A DNA stretch of 14,737 nucleotides from Gemmatimonadota bacterium (GTDB taxonomy: Bacteria; JBHIER01; G020348925). Below, in pieces: positions 6,201-7,396 of the stretch. A program made the position numbers and the translations under genes. Location: contig CP070758.1 in assembly GCA_020348925.1 (NCBI GenBank), positions 4,645,628-4,660,364 of the forward strand. Direction: 5' to 3'. Below the pieces are notes generated by a model, which made no database searches, had not been told where the DNA came from, and saw only the letters and a list, made by a program, of their open reading frames with translations. Position 1 is the first letter of the stretch, and each line of letters begins with the position of its first letter.

Positions 6201-7154
6201 CACAATGACTGATCTGCCGGAATAGTCAACACGTTTGCCGAGCAAATTTTGGCGAAATCGACCCTGCTTTCCCTTTAACAAATCACTCAAGGATTTCAAC
6301 GGTCTGTTGCCATCCCTGCGTACGGCTCGTGAACGCCGACCATTATCCAAGAGGGCATCAACGGCCTCTTGAAGCATTCTTTTTTCGTTTCGCAAAATGA
6401 CATCCGGAGCCTGAATTTCCTGAAGTTTTTTCAGGCGGTTGTTTCGATTAATGACACGGCGGTACAGATCATTCAGGTCGGACGTGGCAAATCGTCCACC
6501 CTCAAGCGGCACCAACGGCCTCAAATCCGGGGGGATGACCGGAAGAACCCTTAAAATCATCCACCCAGGATCATTCCCCGATTGTCGAAAAGCTTCCACG
6601 ACTTTCAACCGTTTCAACGCCTCTTTCTTCCGCTGTGCGGACGTTTCCATTTTTACCTGAGCTCTCAATTCGGCCGAAAGCTCCTCGATGTCAATCTCCT
6701 CCAAAAGTCGAAGAATAGCAACAGCTCCAATGTCAGCATCAAACTGATGTCCTTCCTCGAGGAGCTGCTGGTAATCTTCCTCCGAGATCAGCTCCCTCTT
6801 CTTCAGGTCCGTATCGCCCGGATCAATAATGATACGGGATTCGTAATAGATGACCCGTTCAAGGTCACGAATGGATACATCGAGAAGATATCCAATCCGG
6901 CTGGGGATCGATTTGAGAAACCATATGTGTGATACAGGAACTGCCAATTCAATGTGGCCCATACGTTCACGACGCACCTTCGAATGGGTCACCTCGACCC
7001 CGCATCGATCGCAGATGACTCCCTTGTACCGGATGGATTTGAATTTACCGCAGTAGCACTCCCACTCCTTGGTGGTACCAAAGATACGCTCACAGAAGAG
7101 TCCGTCCTTTTCGGGTCTGAGAGTCCGGTAATTGATCGTCTCCGGCTTCTTCAC
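3201..7154 (-). CDS. rpoC: RNA polymerase beta' subunit, main part (frame broken near the 5' end)
   Basis: This 1317-codon frame encodes nearly all of beta', which carries the catalytic magnesium site. Visible landmarks are a first zinc site (C33, C35, C48, C51), the catalytic NADFDGDQM at 420-428, the bridge helix region around 715-746, a second zinc site (C757, C831, C838, C841) and the trigger loop around 855-885 ([16 protein letters not shown]). The first in-frame start is the GTG at 7152-7154 ([10 protein letters not shown]), which overlaps the upstream stop as GTGA. A normal protein would have about 35 more N-terminal residues. These are encoded by the neighbouring front ORF (7151-7396) in another frame, together with a second copy of 46 codons. 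A normal gene would give about 1352 residues. The C-terminus is complete. Whether this frame is translated alone, or the break is an assembly or sequencing fault, cannot be told here. Confidence 0.93.
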
Positions 7155-7160
7155 CTCGCC
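7023..7160 (-). repeat. rpoC 5' duplication, copy B (start of the main ORF)
   Basis: The second 138-base unit, encoding [12 protein letters not shown] through [10 protein letters not shown]. It continues without a break into a normal rpoC. The offset from copy A is 137 bases, not a multiple of three, and that is what breaks the frame. The first 56 codons of the main ORF have about 73 percent G or C at third positions (41 of 56), the next 54 only about 44 percent (24 of 54); both are hand counts. Confidence 0.9.
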
Positions 7161-7396
7161 CGATAACGAATCCGCTTATACTTTCCGCAATGACATTCCC
7201 AATCTTTCACCGGGCCGAAAATTCGTTCACAAAAGAGACCTTCCCTTTCCGGTTTAAAGGAACGATAATTAATCGTTTCGGGCTTGGTTACCTCTCCGGA
7301 TGACCAACTTCGGATGGTCTCGGGGGAAGCCAATCCAATCTTTATGGCTGTAAAATCCGTTGGTTTTTTCACCATTATTTCTTTTGTACTAATCAC
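7151..7396 (-). CDS. rpoC: RNA polymerase beta' subunit, front fragment ending at a duplication junction
   Basis: Eighty-one codons that begin like a normal beta': the GTG start has AAGGAGGC at 7405-7412, and the conserved [15 protein letters not shown] lies at 18-32. The fragment runs through KPETINYR and the first zinc pair C68-H-C70, up to KYKRIRYR at residue 79. A normal gene would continue with Gly and the second CxxC pair. Here the sequence jumps back to [12 protein letters not shown], the equivalent of codon 34, one base out of frame, and the fragment ends at TGA (7151-7153). It therefore has only half of the zinc site. It follows rpoB by 37 bases. On its own it could not be a working subunit. 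It may be the true 5' end of rpoC spoiled by a mis-join, by a one-base error or by a recombination event. Confidence 0.85.
7160..7297 (-). repeat. rpoC 5' duplication, copy A (codons 34-79 of the front ORF)
   Basis: A 138-base unit encoding [12 protein letters not shown] through [10 protein letters not shown]. Hand alignment with copy B gives 33 of 46 residues identical and about 90 of 138 bases identical. The two units abut tail to head with one shared base. About 41 percent of third codon positions in this copy are G or C (19 of 46, hand count). Confidence 0.9.

Follow-up and report, generated by a model that had tools for sequence, protein, structure and literature searches.

The rpoC gene of the window (the whole stretch of 14,737 bp that was analysed) raises the question whether an RNA polymerase beta' gene that carries one of its parts twice belongs to a living cell or to its assembly. 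The gene lies on the minus strand with its start near 7396, and its codons 34-79 are present in two versions. Copy A (7160..7297, minus strand) is of the native type and shows a mean agreement of 91% with the Zixibacteria group. It is followed by copy B (7023-7160), base 7160 being common to both; the remaining 137 bp of B (7023..7159, minus strand) form a foreign tract. A and B are identical at 90 of 138 bases and at 33 of 46 residues (72%). Copy A possesses the first CxC pair of the zinc site alone, copy B the full site. Coordinates, orientation, shared base, both identity counts and the distribution of the zinc ligands had been given correctly in an earlier, sequence-only reading of this DNA. 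In a profile search (TIGR02386) copy A reached an E value of 6e-35 and copy B together with the body of the gene an E value of 0; a chance resemblance is excluded, since both copies are unmistakably rpoC.

Since the repeat has a period of 137 bp, copy B is read in the -1 frame with respect to A. The gene reads as a truncated 5' ORF of 81 aa (7151..7396, minus strand), which begins with GTG and ends inside copy B at a TGA (7151-7153), and as a long ORF of 1317 aa (3201..7154, minus strand), whose open frame begins no earlier than a GTG at 7154, likewise inside copy B. A programmed frameshift at the junction was considered and rejected, no slippery heptamer being visible by eye. From codon 80-92 onward the long ORF is of the native type. 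The very unusual beta' subunit that had been envisaged is unsupported, because the copies are out of frame and because the repeat, which was sought in the rpoC genes of relatives, is absent from those aligned: all are continuous and have codons 34-79 once. No further rpoC match was found in the genome, which is rated 96% complete, so that a real event would break an essential gene. A search for copy B elsewhere in the genome also found none.

Which of the two copies is the intruder was judged against rpoC from about 125 loci. When the codon 34-79 tract is regressed on the following region for each of these rows, B plus body has a z of -5.85, the lowest of the 125, and A plus body lies on the regression line with a z of 0.06. 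At third positions B has a GC content of 0.74 and A one of 0.41; rpoB and the rpoC body stand at 0.52-0.53, and the value of B lies above those of all 2,443 windows of 46 codons taken from rpoB and the rpoC body. The regression and the third-position GC both mark B as the intruder and A plus body as one set. In codons 34-79, other deep lineages agree with the Zixibacteria-group rows at 0.77-0.98, but copy B at only 0.78 in one half and 0.64 in the other; past codon 79, the window resembles native sequence about as closely as those lineages do. By z, by third-position GC and by the motif counts given below, B set against A plus body, one contig holds parts of different organisms. B alone is foreign, and the second organism accounts for the B tract of about 137-177 bp and no more.

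Among 386 genomes searched, one (G434) stands out with 98% identity over the 46 residues of copy B. The 176-bp stretch is matched in 285 of 392 genomes of the G434 phylum, but the best DNA identity is 86%, and an exact donor was not found there. The motif GTTKEW occurs in 30 and GKFKS in all of the 31 rows from this phylum, counts that describe only the part of the phylum nearest to B because these rows are mostly best matches; both motifs are found in 0 of 136 other rows (36 of the wider kin of the window and 100 others). Over residues 34-92 the window has exactly the sequence of one member (L262), and at the residue after 92 it switches to the type of its kin (S, not F). Copy B is of the type of this other phylum, copy A of the native type. 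As we take motifs of the GTTKEW/GKFKS type to be those of spirochaete RpoC, the donor phylum is probably Spirochaetota. A phage search with the B protein returned records with a cellular-type rpoC and is uninformative on B, and a PDB sequence search was of no help toward the donor.

The sequences on both sides of the tract appear to belong together. The intact rpoB (7434..11216, minus strand), which lies beside copy A, is of the same deep lineage as the rpoC body, and in both the rpoB tree and the tree of rpoC (taken from B onward) the window falls at the same unresolved spot: it is not within the Zixibacteria group, and its neighbours are Latescibacterota, Eisenbacteria and the small phylum G006. 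In pairwise identities of rpoB versus rpoC, the rpoB of the window is slightly less similar to others than its rpoC predicts (mean z -0.67; the other rows range from -1.13 to 1.05). Since rpoB and the rpoC body place together, the flanks give no sign of separate phyla; a single deep lineage near Zixibacteriota and Latescibacterota accommodates rpoB, copy A and the part of rpoC that follows B. A join of two halves from different phyla was rejected as the main picture on the agreement of the two trees. However, rpoB plus A may stem from one member of an unsampled phylum and the rpoC body from another member of it. The mis-join or chimeric read of two organisms that had been put first in the sequence-only reading is still the best-supported explanation, with the refinement that the flanks show no sign of different phyla and only B is foreign. 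As a whole, the genome would represent a deep lineage of its own in the vicinity of Zixibacteriota and Latescibacterota, as rpoB and rpoC suggest.

The two ends of the foreign tract differ in kind. The change from foreign to native falls in a conserved stretch comprising codons 80-92 (6984..7022, minus strand), and copy A ends exactly before it. When 1,116 pairs made of one row from each group were compared, the longest exact in-register runs common to both phyla (31, 29 and 28 nt) all started in codons 80-92, while over all 1,116 pairs the best exact runs are more widely scattered than that. At the A/B junction (7152..7165, minus strand; ATCGGGCGAGGTGA) few bases are shared, and the GTG start and the TGA stop overlap as GTGA; the join itself (ATCGGGCGAGG) has only a few bases in common with donor-type sequence. 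The switch thus lies in sequence common to both organisms at codons 80-92, and at the A/B side in only a few bases, both switch points being within about 180 bp.

The window is a contig of its own, bounded on either side by a gap of 100 N, in a genome that is presented as a single contig of 5.04 Mb. In 1.48 Mb of it, 82 of 83 gaps measure exactly 100 N, one per about 18 kb, and the neighbourhood across gaps is untrustworthy because the genome consists of contigs strung together by such runs (e.g. L114 19529-19628, L115 366-465). One run of 3,528 N (L157 5378-8905) is unlike the others and is perhaps sequence that was withheld, or else an rRNA-sized masked stretch. Both ends of the window lie in tuf genes for EF-Tu, the 5' part of one (1..141, minus strand) and the 3' part of another (14605..14737, minus strand) being cut by the contig ends. 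Beyond both gaps other genes follow, and the assembly broke at the duplicated tuf genes. Short-read assemblies typically break off in duplicated genes, and such ends, together with the 100-N gaps, mark a fragmented draft. Across one of the gaps the ORF list falsely fuses a peptidase-like gene with the 3' end of tuf. Three adjacent related proteins of about 1,390-1,720 aa with the look of C25-type (gingipain-like) peptidases by eye are encoded at L115 5632-19924 (minus strand); they have a dockerin-like C-terminal end (GDVNxDGxVNILD), which is also found on neighbouring proteins. No comparable tandem break was seen in the 1.48 Mb among the 11 other tandem pairs listed, which were judged by coordinates and identities and not one by one. 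The 137-bp offset with its -1 frame, the restriction of the mismatch to B, the different phylum of B and the position as a single contig between 100-N gaps all go beyond the sequence-only reading.

As assembled, the gene reads as a mosaic of native codons 1-79, codons 34-79 of another phylum and, from codons 80-92, the native gene again. In all likelihood the presence of B is an artefact, a metagenome-assembly chimera at a conserved stretch, and the real rpoC of the organism is most likely an ordinary, single one. Where a conserved stretch exceeds k in length, k-mer assemblers have no means of knowing which arms on its two sides belong together, a recognised problem from which chimeric contigs can arise (PMC11443906; for misassemblies in general, PMC8172020). 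Two phyla in one metagenome would have had identical k-mers in the codon 80-92 stretch, giving a tangle in which a native-left and a foreign-left arm both enter the shared stretch. The assembler would have placed the foreign overhang, which lies upstream, in front of the native contig on the downstream side; merging or gap closing would then have abutted this overhang to the native upstream contig, which ended at the graph fork. The size of the apparent duplication would then simply be that of the foreign overhang, and the loss of the frame a by-product. Such a mis-resolved tangle is the simplest account and would explain why A stops at codon 79 and B starts arbitrarily at codon 34, as well as the broken frame and the seemingly destroyed essential gene. 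Against a chimera count the need for two switches within about 180 bp and the scarcity of common sequence at the A/B join, which make it necessary to assume the second step, as well as the lack of a comparable break in the 1.48 Mb and of an exact donor.

A foreign piece might also have entered by way of a chimeric read or library molecule, a PCR or ligation artefact, instead of a graph error. The tract has about the length of a short read and its switch points are close together, but at normal depth a lone chimeric read is as a rule overruled by the others, which makes this origin scarcely credible; in the assembled sequence alone the two kinds of error look the same. Recombination in the cell could leave a similar trace. 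Homology-facilitated illegitimate recombination, documented in bacteria (PMC3240628), might have brought a short piece of foreign rpoC into all or part of the cells, the junction being homologous at the codon 80-92 side and illegitimate at the A/B side. One conserved and one microhomology junction are what that process leaves behind, but an assembly error produces them as well; moreover, a frequency of 3e-10 per recipient in E. coli conjugation (PMC3240628), an origin in different phyla whose common exact run is at most about 31 nt among the pairs compared, and the breaking of the only rpoC found make such a scar very unlikely.

Next to no credence is given to a two-piece beta', in which the 81-aa and 1317-aa ORFs would both be made, coupled via GTGA (7151-7154), with a duplicated and diverged zinc-site region. 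The overlap of the first stop with the second GTG is in its favour, as are the split RNA-polymerase large subunits of cyanobacteria and the appearance of subunit gamma profiles in the profile search. However, copy A breaks off midway through the zinc site, within the long ORF only B has the type of another phylum, inspection by eye reveals no good ribosome-binding site upstream of the GTG, and the relatives examined lack the repeat. That an inter-phylum insertion of a spirochaete-type fragment is real and has left a split, GTGA-coupled and still functional beta' is extremely improbable. If real, it would be a startling polymerase; as biology, the rpoC repeat is most likely of no consequence. 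The assembly chimera is useful as a caution: a draft joined across gaps, shown as a single 5-Mb contig and stated to be low in contamination, can contain a short inter-phylum chimera within a universal marker gene, and a phylogeny built on rpoC would be misled or a split polymerase claimed as a result.

Three known systems invite comparison. As with the cyanobacterial RpoC1/RpoC2, the gene reads as two ORFs, but the split is far downstream there, whereas here it lies out of frame inside the zinc site and involves a duplicated piece of foreign type. Homology-facilitated illegitimate recombination, as in competent bacteria and E. coli conjugation, likewise leaves a homologous and a non-homologous junction around a foreign fragment; here, however, it would inactivate an essential gene that is seen once, in a case known from assembled sequence alone. 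The chimeric contigs of k-mer assemblers differ in that a second, nearly homology-free A/B join is present here, but they share with this locus two phyla, a conserved stretch with long common exact runs and a draft of short contigs that end in repeated genes.
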